Both the position numbers and the translations under genes were made by a program. A DNA stretch of 6,402 nt, from contig JBFLYA010000216.1 of the NCBI GenBank assembly GCA_040757115.1, forward strand, positions 1 to 6,402, in the 5' to 3' direction. Origin of the DNA: a bacterium (GTDB lineage: Bacteria; UBA9089; CG2-30-40-21; SBAY01). The notes beneath the pieces are model-generated. The model saw only the letters and a program-made list of their open reading frames with translations, was not told the DNA's origin and did not search any database. Every line of letters begins with the position of its first letter. Position 1 is the stretch's first letter. Below are positions 1-6,402 of the stretch, piece by piece.

Positions 1-188
1 AAAAATTTGAAGTAGTGGAAGATTCTGTTAATGGACGTTGGTCTCCAGATGGAAAGATGTTTATAGGAGAATGCTTTTCTCTATATGATAGCACTAGTGG
101 TAAACGAATAGGTCATCCATTGTCAGTTGGAGTGCCATCTCAAAGCGGTAAATATTTTATATATAAAAAGCCAAATAATATTTGGTAA
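1..188 (+). CDS. TolB-like PD40 beta-propeller protein, C-terminal end (copy A, partial)
   Basis: The left edge cuts this gene. An open frame beginning at base 3 encodes the last 61 residues and ends with TAA at 186-188. It contains a PD40/WD40-like strand motif (GRWSPDGKMFIGE), the hallmark of TolB-type beta-propellers, and ends in YKKPNNIW. The complete TolB-like gene at 1208-2389 ends in YKRPNNIW, and each is followed directly by an esterase gene, so this is the equivalent gene of an upstream duplicate module. The preceding part of the two C-termini is only loosely similar, so the duplication is not recent here. By comparison with the complete copy it was probably a membrane-anchored, periplasmic-facing propeller. 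Such propellers usually serve as protein-protein interaction platforms. The partner is unknown. Confidence 0.8.
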   Translation, partial: KFEVVEDSVNGRWSPDGKMFIGECFSLYDSTSGKRIGHPLSVGVPSQSGKYFIYKKPNNIW

Positions 189-206: not shown

Positions 207-1082
207 ATGAAAAAGTTTAACTTATGTATTTTATTGTTGTGCATTCTAAATAGTAAAGTAAGTGCCGAGGAATTTACCTGGGGAAGTTGTACCACTTATG
301 CTCCATATCCTGTGCTATTTATCCACGGTATTAACGCTAATTCATTAACATGGGATACTGCGACTAAAGAATTAGAAAAGTACTTTGGATATAGATGGGT
401 GCAATTTAATAAGCCAACCGAACCAATAACAAAAGAGAAGCCAGCAGTCACCTATGACGAAACCAAGCCCAATGCTCCGCAGAACAAGGTAGTCAAGCAT
501 TATTTAGAGGCGTTTGATTATGGTGGGGAGGATACAGTAGGGAGTACTAAGGCATTAAAGGGAAATTATACCGAGTTAGTAGAAGAAATAGAGAAGGTAT
601 TAAAGGCATATTATGGGGAAGATAAGTGGCAAGAGGGTAAATTAATCTTAGTTGGGCATTCACAAGGAGGTTTGATTGCCAGAGATTATTTACAACGGAA
701 TCCTGATAATGCTAAATACATCAAACGCCTTGTAACTATTGGTACTCCTCATTATGGTAGTCACTGGTTGGCTAATATATCAGCTATGGCAATGCAAGAT
801 CCATCTCTTTCACCGGGTACAAAGCCTAACTGGTTGGGTAAAATAATAAAAGCTTTTGACCAAACATTCAGAAACAATATAAAAGCAGTAGAACGAGGTG
901 ATGCTGCGGTAAAGGATTTATTACCTAATAGTGAATATTTAAAAGAACTTAATCGTCTTTCTATTCCTAAGGATATTGAATATGTATGTTTGGTAGGGCA
1001 GGTGGCAATTCCAGGCCCTCCATTTACATGTGATAGTGATGGTATAGTTATGGGTTATAGTCAAAGGGTGGATTGCTACTAA
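207..1082 (+). CDS. Secreted alpha/beta-hydrolase (lipase/esterase-like), truncated copy A
   Basis: The product is 291 residues. The start is set by GGAGG at 193-197, nine bases upstream of the ATG. Residues 1-20 look like a Sec signal peptide (KK, hydrophobic core, cleavage near VSA). The PVLFIHGINAN strand and oxyanion region (about 35-45), the nucleophile elbow GHSQGG (150-155, Ser152) and GTPHYGS (about 179-185) identify a lipase/PGAP1-like alpha/beta hydrolase. SDGIV (277-281) probably carries the acid, Asp278. From residue 81 to 287 it is nearly identical to the 1104-residue protein at 2405-5719. It then ends abruptly in VDCY, before the position of the intact copy's probable catalytic His320. 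It is therefore probably an internally deleted gene, and the product may be inactive. A LolA-like tail remnant follows out of frame. It may still be translated as a second cistron after the upstream TolB-like gene. Confidence 0.85.
   Translation: MKKFNLCILLLCILNSKVSAEEFTWGSCTTYAPYPVLFIHGINANSLTWDTATKELEKYFGYRWVQFNKPTEPITKEKPAVTYDETKPNAPQNKVVKHYLEAFDYGGEDTVGSTKALKGNYTELVEEIEKVLKAYYGEDKWQEGKLILVGHSQGGLIARDYLQRNPDNAKYIKRLVTIGTPHYGSHWLANISAMAMQDPSLSPGTKPNWLGKIIKAFDQTFRNNIKAVERGDAAVKDLLPNSEYLKELNRLSIPKDIEYVCLVGQVAIPGPPFTCDSDGIVMGYSQRVDCY
477..1068 (+). repeat. Near-identical direct repeat, copy A (pairs with 2675-3266)
   Basis: This stretch of the short esterase gene aligns without gaps to 2675-3266 in the long gene at a constant offset of 2198. 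From 495 to 757 (263 bases) the two are identical. From 758 to 1068 I count 12 mismatches, five of them amino-acid-changing. Upstream of about 477 the similarity falls sharply, to roughly 70% in the last 36 bases and lower in the signal-peptide region. The end at 1068 coincides with the deletion junction. Recent gene conversion between tandem copies is the simplest reading. A recent duplication with a diverged 5' end is the alternative. Confidence 0.9.
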
Positions 1083-1197
1083 ATGTGTTGATGAAGATAT
1101 GTGGGAGGGATATAGTAAAGTTACTGAGACTATCTATACGAAGAGCCAAATTAATACTGGTCTTGCTGATAGTGAATTTGAGCCAACATTTGAATAG
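1069..1197 (+). pseudogene. Out-of-frame remnant of the LolA-like C-terminus of copy A esterase
   Basis: Immediately after the esterase similarity ends, another frame is open for 42 codons to TAG at 1195-1197. It starts WIATKCVDEDMWE and ends INTGLADSEFEPTFE. This lines up with the last 41 residues of the long esterase (WIPTQYIDKMYFE to LNIGISDEEFSIPQ), and both resemble the end of LolA/lipoprotein-sorting-type domains. The segment has no start codon or ribosome site of its own suited to this frame, and the upstream esterase frame stops at 1082, so it is a decayed tail. It shows that copy A once carried the full multi-domain architecture. The homology is visible by eye but moderate. Confidence 0.72.
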
Positions 1198-1207: not shown

Positions 1208-2389
1208 ATGAATATGGACAAGGTGGTAAGGATTTCAGCATTAACAGGATTAGGAGTAGTAGTTTTTTTGTTGGGATATACATTATATTATGCAGTTTTT
1301 TCTATTACTAAGGAATCAGATTTAATCTCCTACCATGCACCTTGCTGGGGAGAGAAAAACAAGATTTATTTTATCAAGAAAGTGGCTTATGGGAAGGCAA
1401 TAATAAATCCTTCTTCATTATTAAACAAGATTCTTTATCTTGAGGGGGATTATTTGCCAGAGAAAACCGAGGTATATGTTTGTTCGATGAATTACGATGG
1501 AAGCAATAAAAAGGAGATAGTAAAACTTTGTGATACAGAGATTGGTAATAGAGAATATGGTGATACAAAGGAAGGGAGTTATTGGTTACCGAGATATATG
1601 GACTGGTGTTCTGCTAATAATTTACTGCTTATTTCAGGAGGAGATATTCCAGGAAGAGGAGAAACTTCACAAGGGGTATATACAATGAAGATAAATGGGC
1701 AGGATAAGAGGAGACTGTCAGAGACAGGGGTGCATGCCTCCTGGTCACCGGATGGAAAGAAAATAGCATATGAAATAATCACAAAAGAATCAAGGAGTGA
1801 AAAAATGTATGGTTATAAGGAGCCTGTAGAATATTATGATGAAGAAAATACTATCTGGGTAATGAATAGTGATGGCAGTGATAAACATCAGATATCAAGA
1901 GAGAAAATACTAACGCGAACAGGCAGATGGGTGCGTGATGAACAAGGGAAACCAGTTATGGAAAACGGAAAAGAGAAGTATGTCTGGAAGGAAATGTATG
2001 AAGATACAGATCCCATCTGGTCACCCAGAGGTGACTTGATTGCCTTTGTTTGCAAAGGCTGGATATATACCATGAAACCAGATGGAAGCGAGAGGAGGAA
2101 GGTGATTGACAGCTCTCATCTTGCAGGTTGGACAGTAGATGGGAAAATGCTCTTTGTCGGTGGAAAAGAAGAAGGTGGTAGCGAACATGCATACAATTGG
2201 TTTGTGGATTTAAATGGTAACATTGTTAAGAAAGTAGCTTACTGGGGTAAATTTTCTTTAGACGGTTCATTATTACGTTGCACTTTGGATATTATTTACA
2301 ATAAAGAAGGGGAAAAATTGCCTTTGAAAGAACCATTTCCTGAAAAAGAGAAATACTGGCAATATAAAAGACCAAATAATATTTGGTAA
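1208..2389 (+). CDS. Membrane-anchored TolB-like PD40 beta-propeller protein (copy B)
   Basis: The 393-residue product begins at the ATG just after AGGAGGG. A single hydrophobic segment (about residues 12-31), preceded by Lys and Arg, looks like an uncleaved membrane anchor that leaves the rest outside the cytoplasm. The body carries PD40/TolB-type propeller repeats: HASWSPDGKKIAYE (176-189), DPIWSPRGDLIAF (268-280), and weaker AGWTVDGKMLFVG (306-318) and GKFSLDGSLL (347-356). Between them are blade strands of the form IWVMNSDGSDK and IYTMKPDGSER. It ends in PNNIW, like the truncated gene at the left edge. Such propellers usually bind other proteins, and no catalytic motif is visible. It lies 15 bases upstream of the long esterase gene, so the two are probably cotranscribed. 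Arginine is mostly AGA/AGG here (13 of 16). It is not a TolB orthologue by context, since no tol-pal genes are nearby. Confidence 0.88.
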   Translation: MNMDKVVRISALTGLGVVVFLLGYTLYYAVFSITKESDLISYHAPCWGEKNKIYFIKKVAYGKAIINPSSLLNKILYLEGDYLPEKTEVYVCSMNYDGSNKKEIVKLCDTEIGNREYGDTKEGSYWLPRYMDWCSANNLLLISGGDIPGRGETSQGVYTMKINGQDKRRLSETGVHASWSPDGKKIAYEIITKESRSEKMYGYKEPVEYYDEENTIWVMNSDGSDKHQISREKILTRTGRWVRDEQGKPVMENGKEKYVWKEMYEDTDPIWSPRGDLIAFVCKGWIYTMKPDGSERRKVIDSSHLAGWTVDGKMLFVGGKEEGGSEHAYNWFVDLNGNIVKKVAYWGKFSLDGSLLRCTLDIIYNKEGEKLPLKEPFPEKEKYWQYKRPNNIW

Positions 2390-2404: not shown

Positions 2405-5400
2405 ATGAAAAAAATTGGATTTTATTTATTATTAGTAGGAAGCATTTTGACTAACAGGGTGTATGGAGAAGAGACAAAGTGGTCAGATAAAGAAAGTTAT
2501 GGGCCTATGCCGGTTCTGTTTATTCATGGGATTAACGCTAATGCAGAGACATGGGACACTACTACTGAAGAATTGGAGAAGTATTTTCAATATAAATGGA
2601 AAAGATTCAATGGAGAAGATATAACATCTGAACCTTATCATCCAGTCACCTATGACGAGGAACATCCCACTGCCCCGCAGAACAAGGTCGTGAAGCATTA
2701 TTTAGAGGCGTTTGATTATGGTGGGGAGGATACAGTAGGGAGTACTAAGGCATTAAAGGGAAATTATACCGAGTTAGTAGAAGAAATAGAGAAGGTATTA
2801 AAGGCATATTATGGGGAAGATAAGTGGCAAGAGGGTAAATTAATCTTAGTTGGGCATTCACAAGGAGGTTTGATTGCCAGAGATTATTTACAACGGAATC
2901 CTGATAATGCTAAATACATCAAACGCCTTGTAACTATTGGTACTCCTCATTATGGCAGTGACTGGTTGGCTAATATATCAGCTATGGCAATGCAAGATCC
3001 ATCTCTTTCACCGGGTACAAAGCCTAACTGGTTGGGTAAAATAATAAAAGCTTTTGACCAAAGATTCAGAAACAATATAAAAGCAGTAGAACGAGGTGAT
3101 GCGGCTGTAAAGGATTTATTACCTAATAGTGAATATTTAAAGGAACTTAATCGTCTTTCTATCCCTAAGGATATTGAATATGTATGTTTGGTAGGGCAGG
3201 TGGTAATTCCAGGCCCTCCGTTTATATGTGATAGTGATGGTATAGTCAAGGGTTATAGTCAAAGGGCAGAAAAGCCACTTCCTCGACTATATCCAAAAGA
3301 CCCTATCATAATTGAGCAAAAAATCCCCTGGGATTATATAATTAACTTACCGGGGATAGAGCATACAAAAGAACCTAAACAATACCAAAAAATCTTCGAA
3401 TCCCTCGACGGTATACCTGATGACCCTGATGGGGAAAAAAGATATTATTACGATACACCAAAAATTACACTTGGCACTTATACCTTCACCCCAGCTACTG
3501 ATACTAATTTGTATTATGATGGTTCTGGCAATGACTTCTATATCACTGGTAAAATCTATGATTACTTACCTGCCAGCTGTACGATTAGTTTAGAAATAAA
3601 TAACCCAGACAATTATGTTATACAAAACAAGCCAGTATCAGCATTAAATATGACTACGGAATCCCAGGAAGAACCAAAAACAGGTCGTCCTCTTAATGCC
3701 AGGTTTAATTTTAAACCCGATGTTGTTTTATCACTTGGCATCCATACATTTCGCCTTACTATTAAAAATTCAGCAGGTTTAGTCGGCACAGCGACTACGC
3801 AAAACGGTTCATACTGGATACCATTCAGGATAACGGAAAAGGTAGTTGAGGTGCCGGGGCAGATAATTACTCCAGCAGGGACGGTTACGATTGCTGGCGG
3901 GTTTCAGGCGGCTTCATCCCTCTATTTCTGGGATAATCAAAATAATTACTGGGAGCGATGGATTAATTCTAATCTACGCGTGGATTCAGATAATATCATC
4001 CGCTATAATTGTGGCACTTCTAACCTCGATAACCCTAATCTCCGACATCGCGTTTATCTGGAAAGCAGAATCTATCCACCGGCCTCGATGTATCCCAAAG
4101 CCTCTTGCGTCAATAAAAAGGAGATGCAGGCGATTACCTATACCTACGGCTCGCCGCCTTTTAAACTACTCCCATTTCCTAAAGCCGATAACACGGTAGT
4201 ATATCGGCCTGATGTAGATGACAACGGCACAATTACCTATCCAGAAGATATGGTTACCTTTACTAATAACGAGGTTATCTTCACCCCAAAGAAAGATGCC
4301 TTACCCAATCTTAATTTTGGACCAATCATCCTTGGTAATCCGATGTATACTTACCCACTACACATAATTATCCCACCAGAATATCAAGGTGTTTCTTCTA
4401 ATGAGCTGGATATTTATATCAATCAGGTCGGAGGATTGTATGCCTTAGAATCGGTCCAGAAGGCGTTCGATTATAGCCAGAGTTTATCCAGCCAACAGGG
4501 TTTTAACCCCACACTAAATATTGCCTGGGCTCAAGAAGCAGATTTAACCAATGACGGGATTACAGGGTTTGGTAGTAACACTGCCGGCGTCTATCGACTA
4601 TTAGTCAATGGAGATAGGGAGGATGAGTTTAATGAGGATAGGATTATTCAGGCTTATGGCAATGCCTTATTGACTCATTACACCAATCGGCAGTATGGGC
4701 AGGGTTATTTTGACTACAAGTTACCCATTGCCTCAATCACCTATACGATGAGTCCACAGCAGGCGTTTGTAGATGGTTTTTGCCTGCGATTTAGTGCGGC
4801 GGTGCGTGGTTCTTCAATCGTAGAACTACCCATAGCATTGGATAAGATACCCTTTGATATATCAGAATCTACCCATCGCGGCACAACATCAGCCTTAGGC
4901 ATAGCTCAGGCATTATATCGAATACCAATGAAGAATATCTGGCAGGCATTAGAGAACCCGAACAAGACTATCGAGCATTCAGGATACACGATTCTTGATT
5001 TGCTTGATGAATTAGATACGCAGGGTTATGATACCAGTTCAATCAGAGCTGAGTTTTTTTCAACTGCCATGCCCACCCCCGCAGAAATTCTGCAAAAGGT
5101 AGCCGAGAATTTTGGGAAGATTGAGGATATGAAGGCAAAGATGATTAGTTGGGGGAGTGCAGGAACAAAAACTTTCTCTGCAGTAGAAAGAAAACTTTTA
5201 TTCAAAAAGCCAGATAAAATGAAGTTTATAACCCCAGATAGAAACCGAACTGTGATTATAAATGGTGATATACAATGCGAAATAGACCAGCAGGGAACTA
5301 TGACTACAAATATTTCTGATTATGCAGATATATCTGAACGCCAATTAGATATTCACTACTATCTTCAGGAGTTTAAAGACAAACACAATATTGTTATTAT

Positions 5401-5719
5401 TGATCATCAGATTGTCAAGGGGAATATTTATATTTTAGAAGCTATTCCTAAAGAACCTAACATAATTTATGGAAGATTAGTCTTTTATATCGACTATGAT
5501 AAAGGGATTGATGTTAAAAGGGAAGTATTTTCTGATGATAATATATTGTTAGTTACTAAAGAAATTACCATATCTGAATTGATAAAGGGTATTTGGATAC
5601 CTACTCAATACATTGATAAGATGTACTTTGAAGATGGAGTGATTGAAACAAATACAGAATTGAGAGAGATTGAATTAAATATTGGGATTTCGGACGAAGA
5701 ATTTAGTATTCCTCAATAA
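2405..5719 (+). CDS. Large secreted lipase-like hydrolase with Ig-like and LolA-like domains (copy B)
   Basis: The 1104-residue product starts at an ATG nine bases after GGAGG (2391-2395). Residues 1-21 form a signal peptide ending near VYG. Residues about 35-335 form a lipase/PGAP1-like alpha/beta hydrolase: PVLFIHGINAN (36-46), GHSQGG with Ser152, GTPHYGS (179-185), SDGIV with Asp278, and GIEH with His320 as the probable third triad member. About 350-480 looks like an Ig-like beta-sandwich (near its end SLGIHTFRLTIKNSAG). About 485-885 is not recognised. It holds an EF-hand-like loop at 603-614 and a D-x-T-x-D-G motif at 713-718. About 890-1104 resembles LolA or outer-membrane lipoprotein-sorting proteins: AEILQKVAENFGKIEDMKAKM at its start, KKPDKMKF, GIWIPT, and ISDEEF at its end. 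The product is exported and probably acts on an ester or lipid in the envelope or outside the cell. The substrate cannot be read from sequence. The middle uses CGN arginine codons far more than its neighbours. Confidence 0.88.
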   Translation: MKKIGFYLLLVGSILTNRVYGEETKWSDKESYGPMPVLFIHGINANAETWDTTTEELEKYFQYKWKRFNGEDITSEPYHPVTYDEEHPTAPQNKVVKHYLEAFDYGGEDTVGSTKALKGNYTELVEEIEKVLKAYYGEDKWQEGKLILVGHSQGGLIARDYLQRNPDNAKYIKRLVTIGTPHYGSDWLANISAMAMQDPSLSPGTKPNWLGKIIKAFDQRFRNNIKAVERGDAAVKDLLPNSEYLKELNRLSIPKDIEYVCLVGQVVIPGPPFICDSDGIVKGYSQRAEKPLPRLYPKDPIIIEQKIPWDYIINLPGIEHTKEPKQYQKIFESLDGIPDDPDGEKRYYYDTPKITLGTYTFTPATDTNLYYDGSGNDFYITGKIYDYLPASCTISLEINNPDNYVIQNKPVSALNMTTESQEEPKTGRPLNARFNFKPDVVLSLGIHTFRLTIKNSAGLVGTATTQNGSYWIPFRITEKVVEVPGQIITPAGTVTIAGGFQAASSLYFWDNQNNYWERWINSNLRVDSDNIIRYNCGTSNLDNPNLRHRVYLESRIYPPASMYPKASCVNKKEMQAITYTYGSPPFKLLPFPKADNTVVYRPDVDDNGTITYPEDMVTFTNNEVIFTPKKDALPNLNFGPIILGNPMYTYPLHIIIPPEYQGVSSNELDIYINQVGGLYALESVQKAFDYSQSLSSQQGFNPTLNIAWAQEADLTNDGITGFGSNTAGVYRLLVNGDREDEFNEDRIIQAYGNALLTHYTNRQYGQGYFDYKLPIASITYTMSPQQAFVDGFCLRFSAAVRGSSIVELPIALDKIPFDISESTHRGTTSALGIAQALYRIPMKNIWQALENPNKTIEHSGYTILDLLDELDTQGYDTSSIRAEFFSTAMPTPAEILQKVAENFGKIEDMKAKMISWGSAGTKTFSAVERKLLFKKPDKMKFITPDRNRTVIINGDIQCEIDQQGTMTTNISDYADISERQLDIHYYLQEFKDKHNIVIIDHQIVKGNIYILEAIPKEPNIIYGRLVFYIDYDKGIDVKREVFSDDNILLVTKEITISELIKGIWIPTQYIDKMYFEDGVIETNTELREIELNIGISDEEFSIPQ
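2675..3266 (+). repeat. Near-identical direct repeat, copy B (pairs with 477-1068)
   Basis: This is the matching segment in the long esterase gene, covering residues about 91-287 of the hydrolase domain including the nucleophile elbow and the acid residue. The block identical in both copies is 2693-2955 here. It ends with AAAGGG at 3261-3266. The same hexamer recurs at 5584-5589, just before the codons for WIPTQ, which are the two sites joined in the deleted copy A. Confidence 0.9.
4211..4246 (+). other. EF-hand-like calcium-binding loop inside the long esterase
   Basis: These codons specify residues 603-614, DVDDNGTITYPE. This fits the canonical 12-residue EF-hand loop at every key position: Asp at 1 and 3, Asn at 5, Gly at 6, Ile at 8 and Glu at 12. 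Flanking helices are not obvious, since the neighbourhood looks beta-rich. A stand-alone calcium loop, of the kind found in secreted bacterial proteins, is more likely than a true EF-hand pair. Calcium binding is an inference from the motif only. Confidence 0.5.
5072..5719 (+). other. LolA / lipoprotein-sorting-like domain at the C-terminus of the long esterase
   Basis: Residues about 890-1104. The helical start (PTPAEILQKVAENFGKIEDM), the KKPDKMKF strand, beta-strand repeats such as GRLVFYIDYDKGIDVKREVF, the GIWIPT turn and the closing NIGISDEEF follow the layout of the LolA/LolB/RseB-type half-barrel. Proteins with this fold hold acyl chains or lipoproteins in the periplasm. Family membership is judged from motif order by eye, without an alignment score. 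Confidence 0.6.
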
Positions 5720-5782: not shown

Positions 5783-5806
5783 GGTAGCCGCAGGCTTTAG
5801 CCTGCG
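5783..5806 (+). repeat. REP-type palindrome, left copy
   Basis: The element begins GGTAGC and contains the hairpin CGCAGGCTTTAGCCTGCG (5789-5806), a perfect 7-8 bp stem with a 2-4 base loop. Its reverse complement recurs at 6189-6212 with one mismatch. It lies 64 bases after the long esterase stop and could slow transcription or protect the mRNA end, but no T-run follows it. Confidence 0.85.
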
Positions 5807-5823
5807 TAGCTCGGCAGAAAATA

Positions 5824-6125
5824 ATGGAGAGACATATTAAAGAAAAGAAACATCGGTTGTCTTTAGATAATTATAAAGGTTTTGTAAGAGTTACATTTAC
5901 ATTAAGTCAGATTTATGGAGAGTAATAATTGCCTTTAAGCAGAAAACAGGTTTTTGGTTTTCCCAGAACAGGGAAAGGATACAGTGGCAAAAGGATTTTT
6001 ATGATCATATACATCGCAAGGAGGAGGATTTAAGAAAGCATATAGTATATATTTTTGAGAATCCGATAAGAAAAGGGATAGTAGATAATTTTAAGAATTA
6101 TCCCTATTTAGGGTCATTGGATTAA
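5824..6125 (+). pseudogene. REP-associated tyrosine transposase (RAYT, Y1/HUH type), internally deleted
   Basis: One frame from the ATG at 5824 gives an N-terminal RAYT signature (KKHRLSLDNYKGFVRVTFTLS) and then stops at 5923-5925. A second frame from about 5907 to TAA at 6123-6125 gives the C-terminal signature: SDLWRVIIAFKQKTGFWFS, then WQKDFYDHIHRKEEDLRKH and YIFENPIRKGIVDNFKNYPY. The two halves abut at about 5907. The catalytic middle, with the HUH histidines, is missing, and the join is out of frame. Only about 100 residues' worth of coding remains, against roughly 150-200 for intact relatives. The Tyr in FYDHI probably corresponds to the active-site region of the family. Confidence 0.82.
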
Positions 6126-6188
6126 AGTTTAGAGGAAATTGTTTTATAGGGTCGGTTTACGAACCAGCGGTTATCAGCTACCAGACAA

Positions 6189-6212
6189 CGCAGGCTAAAG
6201 CCTGTGGCTACC
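6189..6212 (-). repeat. REP-type palindrome, right copy (inverted)
   Basis: This is the reverse complement of the left element at 23 of 24 positions and ends in GGCTACC. Its hairpin CGCAGGCTAAAGCCTGTG (6189-6206) has one G-T wobble where the left copy has G-C. It lies 64 bases after the RAYT remnant and ends 20 bases before the next start codon. Confidence 0.85.
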
Positions 6213-6232
6213 AACTTAAGGTGGAAAAGATA

Positions 6233-6402
6233 ATGAAGACAATTGAAAATATATGTATTTTAGTTTTGGTTATTTTTTTAGTAGTAATTATCTTCAAGAA
6301 GAAGGCGATAAAAATAATCATTATCAGTGGGATAATCATAGGAGCAATAATAGGTGGTTGTAAATGGTTAGAATATAAGTTTGGTGCCAGAGAGAGTGAT
6401 AG
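6233..6402 (+). CDS. Small predicted membrane protein of unknown function (5' part)
   Basis: An open frame from the ATG at 6233 continues past the right edge, with 56 complete codons visible. AAGGTGG at 6218-6224 is a plausible ribosome binding site, eight bases upstream. The product has two hydrophobic segments (about residues 7-22 and 27-42) separated by a short KKKAIK loop, followed by a charged stretch (KWLEYKFGARESD). The first segment could be a signal anchor. I recognise no family. It follows the right REP element, so it is probably expressed separately from the esterase genes. It is too short and incomplete to assign a role. Confidence 0.6.
   Translation, partial: MKTIENICILVLVIFLVVIIFKKKAIKIIIISGIIIGAIIGGCKWLEYKFGARESD

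Follow-up and report, generated by a model that had tools for sequence, protein, structure and literature searches.

Why should a secreted lipase-type hydrolase end in a LolA-like domain, and what would the one do for the other? The question is raised by contig C216 of a 4.3 Mb draft genome (462 contigs, G000 below) of the phylum Candidatus Desantisbacteria. The whole contig, 6402 bases, is the stretch analysed here (the window). Its main gene codes for a single protein in which a hydrolase, an Ig-like domain, a long middle region (the trunk) and a LolA-fold domain follow one another. We found that this fusion is a Rosetta-stone version of an undescribed operon of LolA and lipase genes, with or without a gene for a PD40 propeller, that stands here in tandem mosaic cassettes. 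The components are of known kinds, and it is the architecture and the operon that appear to be new. The original prediction, made from the DNA letters alone, had proposed a lipase-type hydrolase fused to a LolA-like domain, a combination of which it knew no description. The open reading frame, Pfam matches to PGAP1 and PF17131 and a predicted LolA half-barrel all agree with the proposed fusion, and among open-licence papers we found no description of a LolA-lipase fusion or of a LolA-hydrolase operon. What that prediction missed is a pseudo-metallopeptidase in the middle of the protein, the swapping of the LolA module onto other proteins, and a conserved LolA-hydrolase(-PD40) gene neighbourhood.

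The frame starts with ATG and is preceded by the ribosome-binding-site-like AAGGAGGG. In G001, a second species of the same genus, one homologue covers the protein from hydrolase to trunk at 65% identity and another covers trunk and LolA at about 59%. Because the open frame is conserved in this second species it is, as judged from the sequences, a real gene, and the presence of the trunk-LolA fusion in a second genome also rules out a chance frame or an assembly artefact.

The identity of the C-terminal domain rests on profile and fold. PF17131 (LolA_like) matches residues 990-1101 of the whole protein at 35 bits (E 1.5e-8, cut-off 30) and the 222-residue C-terminal stretch taken alone at 39 bits (E 8.4e-10). 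Of the 15 aligned members of the domain, 14 reach E <= 0.1 with this model. Four of those 15 members are found by PF03548, the model of canonical LolA, which does not match the window domain; PF17131 is the only model to match that domain at E <= 0.1. An AlphaFold model built from the 15-sequence alignment (predicted local distance difference test, pLDDT, 89.6; predicted template modelling score 0.83) is a LolA half-barrel, and both Foldseek and VIA-align rank structures of the LolA superfamily first. VIA Z scores are 20.2 with 4z48 (DUF1329), 19.6 with Porphyromonas gingivalis LolA3 (9tp6), 19.5 with 3bk5 and about 12.5 with the Escherichia coli LolA structures, with which the predicted half-barrel and its N-terminal helix are held in common. 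An ordinary adhesion or secretion tail is ruled out by this fold, and the lack of a half-barrel, which the original prediction had named as its own refutation, was looked for and did not turn up. Unlike a housekeeping LolA carrier, which is a free periplasmic protein, the domain here forms the C-terminus of a 1104-residue enzyme or is coded by a gene beside a lipase. Weak LolA relatives are present separately in the window genome (C24, C32), as are six permeases with a MacB_PCD domain, a class searched in general, none of which was assigned to LolCE.

At the other end of the protein, the PGAP1 match spans residues 35-187; other alpha/beta-hydrolase models also score, Palm_thioest above its cut-off. 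Ser152, Asp278 and the probable His320, named as catalytic by the original prediction, are the expected letters in GHSQGG, CDSDGIV and PGIEHT, so that a GxSxG elbow, an acid and a histidine are all in place, and the elbow is conserved across the family. The nearest solved enzymes by profile are the esterase BlEst2 (E 1.5e-11) and then triacylglycerol lipases of the Burkholderia/Pseudomonas type (E ~1e-10). The protein is thus by sequence a secreted hydrolase with predicted lipase or esterase activity. It shares elbow, Asp, His and these profile matches with PGAP1/PPT-like enzymes and family I bacterial lipases, and differs from them in its Ig, pseudo-peptidase and LolA parts and in having no foldase gene.

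The strongest support for a joint function of the two ends is the gene neighbourhood. Most of the LolA-fold genes closest to that of the window have a gene for a secreted alpha/beta hydrolase behind them, next in line or after one PD40 gene. At 14 loci a stand-alone LolA gene of the subfamily has the hydrolase gene downstream on its own strand, at a distance of about 50 bp or less: four in the window genome (C41 and C148, two each), five in G001 (C277, C366, C373, C425 and C100, the last with a hydrolase that did not reach the threshold of the profile and that was identified from its N-terminus), two in G002 (C166, C223), one in G007 of the same order (C102) and two outside the phylum (G124, G260). 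In a second arrangement a LolA-ending gene is followed by a PD40 propeller gene and, about 1-1.5 kb downstream, by the hydrolase gene. This order is found in the window genome (C255), in G001 (C229, C364, C417) and in G003, and also in another small phylum (G235, G364 and two loci of G387), while in G056 and G093 the hydrolase partner of LolA is more loosely spaced. G235, G364, G387 and G093 belong to one genus in a phylum represented by 5 genomes, and G124 and G260 to one genus in a phylum represented by 7. The neighbourhood is therefore present in Desantisbacteria and in at least three outside lineages, two of them confirmed as separate small phyla. As a control, none of 20 loci of weaker LolA relatives, several of them on short stretches, has such a hydrolase downstream. 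In G388 and G390 the contigs end too close to LolA to show the downstream gene. It is this recurrence across lineages that makes the window fusion the Rosetta-stone form of an operon.

Fusion itself has also happened elsewhere. On contig C364 of G001 (L042 2923-4182) trunk and LolA lie in one frame. In a tree of 29 LolA sequences the window domain falls among the LolA tails that G001 has on its Ig-repeat proteins (supports 97/96 and 98/97). The fused domain of C364 does not join it there but falls in another group of Ig-LolA proteins (97/91). Because the two fused domains fall in different groups, the module has, as far as the tree tells, come onto this trunk, by joining or by exchange, on two or more occasions. 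Moreover, what is left of a LolA tail stands directly behind a truncated hydrolase at two places, in the window (1075-1197) and on C255 (4094-4297), and therefore hydrolase-LolA fusions were probably commoner in the array than its one intact gene would suggest. A deletion that joined a hydrolase gene to a LolA-ending gene is the probable origin of the fusion; genes of both kinds are found in these tandem arrays.

The part between the two ends had been described as an Ig-like domain followed by about 400 unassigned residues. The Ig-like domain is borne out by the predicted model and by VIA matches to fn3/Ig modules. The long stretch exists too, and only small shifts of the proposed borders were needed (LolA from about residue 889, the stretch itself at about 483-890); it does not stay unassigned, since most of it is predicted to be a thermolysin-like fold that lacks HExxH. 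Modelled together, residues 340-890 (mean pLDDT 68; 74-93 over most of the helical half) form an Ig-like domain and then a two-lobed one. The top 12 VIA matches cover model residues 142-551 and are without exception thermolysin-like enzymes of the M4/M36 type (Z 13-14.6, 229-253 residues aligned, root-mean-square deviation ~4 A), and the next 30 or so are M1 aminopeptidases and their kin. The top rows of Foldseek are pilins, adhesins and antibodies with poor TM-scores, which we judge to reflect only the beta-sandwich parts of the model. Pfam and PDB sequence and profile searches gave no match to the middle domain. The zinc-binding HExxH is missing from all 13 aligned homologues and from the 18 reading frames examined; a profile alignment of low confidence places QAYGN (4649-4663) where HExxH (HEYTH in active enzymes) is expected and Asp790 where the Glu of the third ligand is expected. 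We predict a catalytically dead thermolysin-like pseudo-peptidase because the modelled fold is combined with a missing motif; the match at the level of sequence is by itself not significant. It would thus share the two-lobed gluzincin fold with M4/M36 peptidases, but neither their HExxH nor a significant profile match. An active metallopeptidase, first guessed to be a zincin from the motifs DE...DK and AFVDGF, agrees with the fold and is rejected by the loss of HExxH in all homologues.

Copies of the middle domain turned up in 10 of the 19 genomes from the phylum; 174 genomes from outside gave none. As read from sequence, other heads on the trunk are M23-like, Amidase_3-like and NlpC/P60-like, and other tails are beta-helix or FlgD-like. 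At one G001 locus (L043 2080-3081) the trunk stands behind an M23-like peptidase head and not a lipase, so heads are exchangeable on it.

From the observed anatomy, predicted folds, missing zinc motif, recurrence of the fusion and gene neighbourhood, we infer, with about an even chance of being right, that the main protein unites in one chain a conserved envelope system of two or three components, in which LolA keeps hold of the lipase's acylated substrate or product. The module would take an acyl chain or a lipidated molecule from an envelope membrane and hold it next to the Ser-Asp-His site or, as an alternative step, would carry off the acyl product once it is freed. Between the two ends, the pseudo-peptidase and Ig domains might act as a spacer or dock a partner; the PD40 propeller could be this partner or else a receptor at the surface. 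In function the nearest analogue is YbbAP-TesA of E. coli, where an ABC transporter is proposed to pull out hydrophobic molecules and hand them to an esterase (PMC12646458). Both couple a handler of hydrophobic molecules with a periplasmic ester hydrolase, although there a transporter presents the substrate, here the handler is a fused or adjacent LolA-fold module, and no component is common to the two; YbbAP-TesA shows that coupling of this kind occurs. In the flexirubin locus, LolA2/LolB2 offer a case in which a LolA-like protein seems dedicated to a single pathway; the available excerpt of the source describes no lipase partner for it (PMC11885536). The YfiM-Griddle operons of the Lipocone survey have a gene for a LolA-like chaperone and possibly one for a patatin-like lipase; the lipase fold and the other partners differ from ours, and the portion of the survey at hand reports neither a LolA-lipase fusion nor PD40 (PMC12419801).

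Several points weigh against a joint function of this kind. Lipid binding and hydrolysis are both predictions from sequence and models. Hydrophobic alternation on the LolA strands is not significant in a crude test (130 of 2000 shuffles reach the observed value). For the middle domain, the mean model confidence given above is low, and a profile-profile comparison with active M36 sequences from other genomes stays at chance level (hhalign 18.4 against a shuffled maximum of 18.9). The control loci carry more distant homologues, so that part of the contrast with them is specific to the subfamily. Some LolA relatives within the phylum (G006, G013, G018, and C24 and C32 of the window genome) lack a hydrolase neighbour, as does LolA in G373, and LolA is paired with PD40 and no hydrolase in G007 (C118) and G384.

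The main rival takes LolA for a dedicated folding or transit chaperone of the secreted lipase that, like the Lif foldases of Burkholderia/Pseudomonas lipases, shields a hydrophobic active site, the fusion then being an intramolecular chaperone. The LolA gene does adjoin the lipase gene at 10-50 bp, as in lipase-foldase pairs; the closest solved lipases by profile include 1cvl/2es4 and 1hqd, which we take to be foldase-dependent; and the exchange of the module between trunks would be in keeping with a helper domain. But Lif foldases are helical, whereas the partner here has the LolA fold, and no helical foldase of the Lif type is adjacent or fused. LolA modules are also found at the end of Ig proteins in whose chain no enzyme was seen, and proteins of this fold are known carriers of lipid moieties. 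We consider a chaperone role unlikely. Somewhat less likely again is that the domain merely localises or retains the enzyme by inserting in, or sticking to, the outer membrane or a lipoprotein. Its C-terminal place on several unrelated secreted trunks would suit a sorting or anchoring module, but a tag cannot be a separate gene beside the hydrolase, as LolA is at many loci, and another protein with the same trunk ends in the FlgD-like tail (a label read from sequence) instead. Improbable, finally, is a competition or self-recognition system with the lipase as antibacterial effector and PD40 as its cognate partner or immunity protein, diversified by recombination: tandem cassettes of mosaic identity with a divergent PD40-hydrolase junction and many truncated copies would fit it, but no trafficking domain of a secretion system is seen, PD40 also accompanies LolA where there is no lipase (G384), and many hydrolase genes adjoin LolA without PD40.

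A wider reading can be offered tentatively: LolA carrier, PD40 propeller and PGAP1-type hydrolase would possibly make up an undescribed, widely scattered system that processes or releases lipidated envelope molecules, encountered as operon, tandem mosaic array and fusion, with the enzyme on a pseudo-peptidase trunk and with hydrolase and propeller diversifying as a matched pair. LolA proteins have been studied as lipoprotein ferries, and evidence of coupling to a hydrolase would widen their role. Fusion and operon together lead to the prediction that LolA handles the acyl group for the lipase, by supplying, holding or removing it, which gives a function hypothesis for candidate-phylum genes that family models name only 'lipoprotein-sorting' or not at all.

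Features of the window, with coordinates on its 6402 bases
Feature	Position	Strand	Basis and remarks
3' end of preceding PD40 gene copy	1..188	+	Repeat D3; ends in ...NNIW and stop
Truncated hydrolase paralogue, 291 aa, ending ahead of the catalytic His	207..1082	+	84% identical to main-protein residues 1-289
Remnant of LolA C-terminal tail (ATKCVDEDMWEG...TGLADSEFEPTFE and stop), other frame, directly after the truncated hydrolase	1075..1197	+	LolA profile match C216:1063-1185, E 2.3e-6
PD40/TolB-like beta-propeller gene, likely start ATG 1208	1208..2389	+	Pfam PD40 E 5e-5
Main gene: secreted hydrolase, Ig-like, predicted pseudo-metallopeptidase and LolA fusion, 1104 aa	2405..5719	+	Open reading frame, Pfam, homologues
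N-terminal signal peptide MKKIGFYLLLVGSILTNRVYG, cleavage site inferred	2405..2467	+	Read from sequence
PGAP1/lipase-type alpha/beta hydrolase	2468..3439	+	Pfam PGAP1 E 7e-12, Palm_thioest E 8e-10; family alignment
Catalytic residues: nucleophile Ser152; Asp278; His320	2858-2860; 3236-3238; 3362-3364	+	Residues checked
Ig/fn3-like beta domain, residues ~368-482	3506..3850	+	Model m02e92591e766; VIA to fn3/Ig modules and a PorU C-terminal stretch, Z 7-8
Predicted thermolysin-like pseudo-metallopeptidase, residues ~483-890	3851..5074	+	VIA; HExxH missing
LolA-fold domain, residues 889-1104	5069..5716	+	PF17131; AF2 pLDDT 89.6; Foldseek/VIA
5' end of next PD40 copy, runs off contig	6233..6402	+	Window 6107-6402 98% identical to C207:3252-3547

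Hydrolase and PD40 genes alternate on the window contig, on C207 and on C255, and several of the hydrolase copies are cut short. The array is mosaic: in some pairs of copies the 5' two-thirds of PD40 are 98-100% identical and hydrolase residues ~100-290 are 97-100% identical, while the segment between them, made of the 3' third of PD40 and the N-terminus of the hydrolase, is only 40-75% identical among copies. In the window and on C207 the PD40 3' ends and hydrolase 5' ends thus form one contiguous hypervariable block over two genes, which may be a matched specificity pair. An Rfam search of the window DNA gave no match. An inverted repeat (GGTAGCCGCAGGCTTTAGCCTGCG...) is found at 5783-6212, short pieces of which recur at many sites of the genome; in our own reading of the sequence its interior looks like a decayed REP-associated tyrosine transposase.

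Other arrangements around LolA genes were seen as well. At the G093 locus (L088 2016-2867) a protein with MTGIQIAGL-type repeats stands between LolA and PD40. In G384 the LolA-PD40 pair without lipase (C24, L155, 6456-8167) has a long gene downstream, from 11180; by eye its N-terminus resembles zinc-dependent phospholipase C, and Pfam found only an Ig-like domain there. In a second tandem family (L039, L040, L049, L056, L089-L094) the gene after LolA codes for a secreted 'AHSRGG' hydrolase, which has long C-terminal regions and does not belong to the clade of the window hydrolase. Other LolA relatives (L095, L096, L097, L156; three genomes of the phylum and one outside) lie beside a small protein with a GPRIGLELNEG-like motif, which is possibly another LolA partner.

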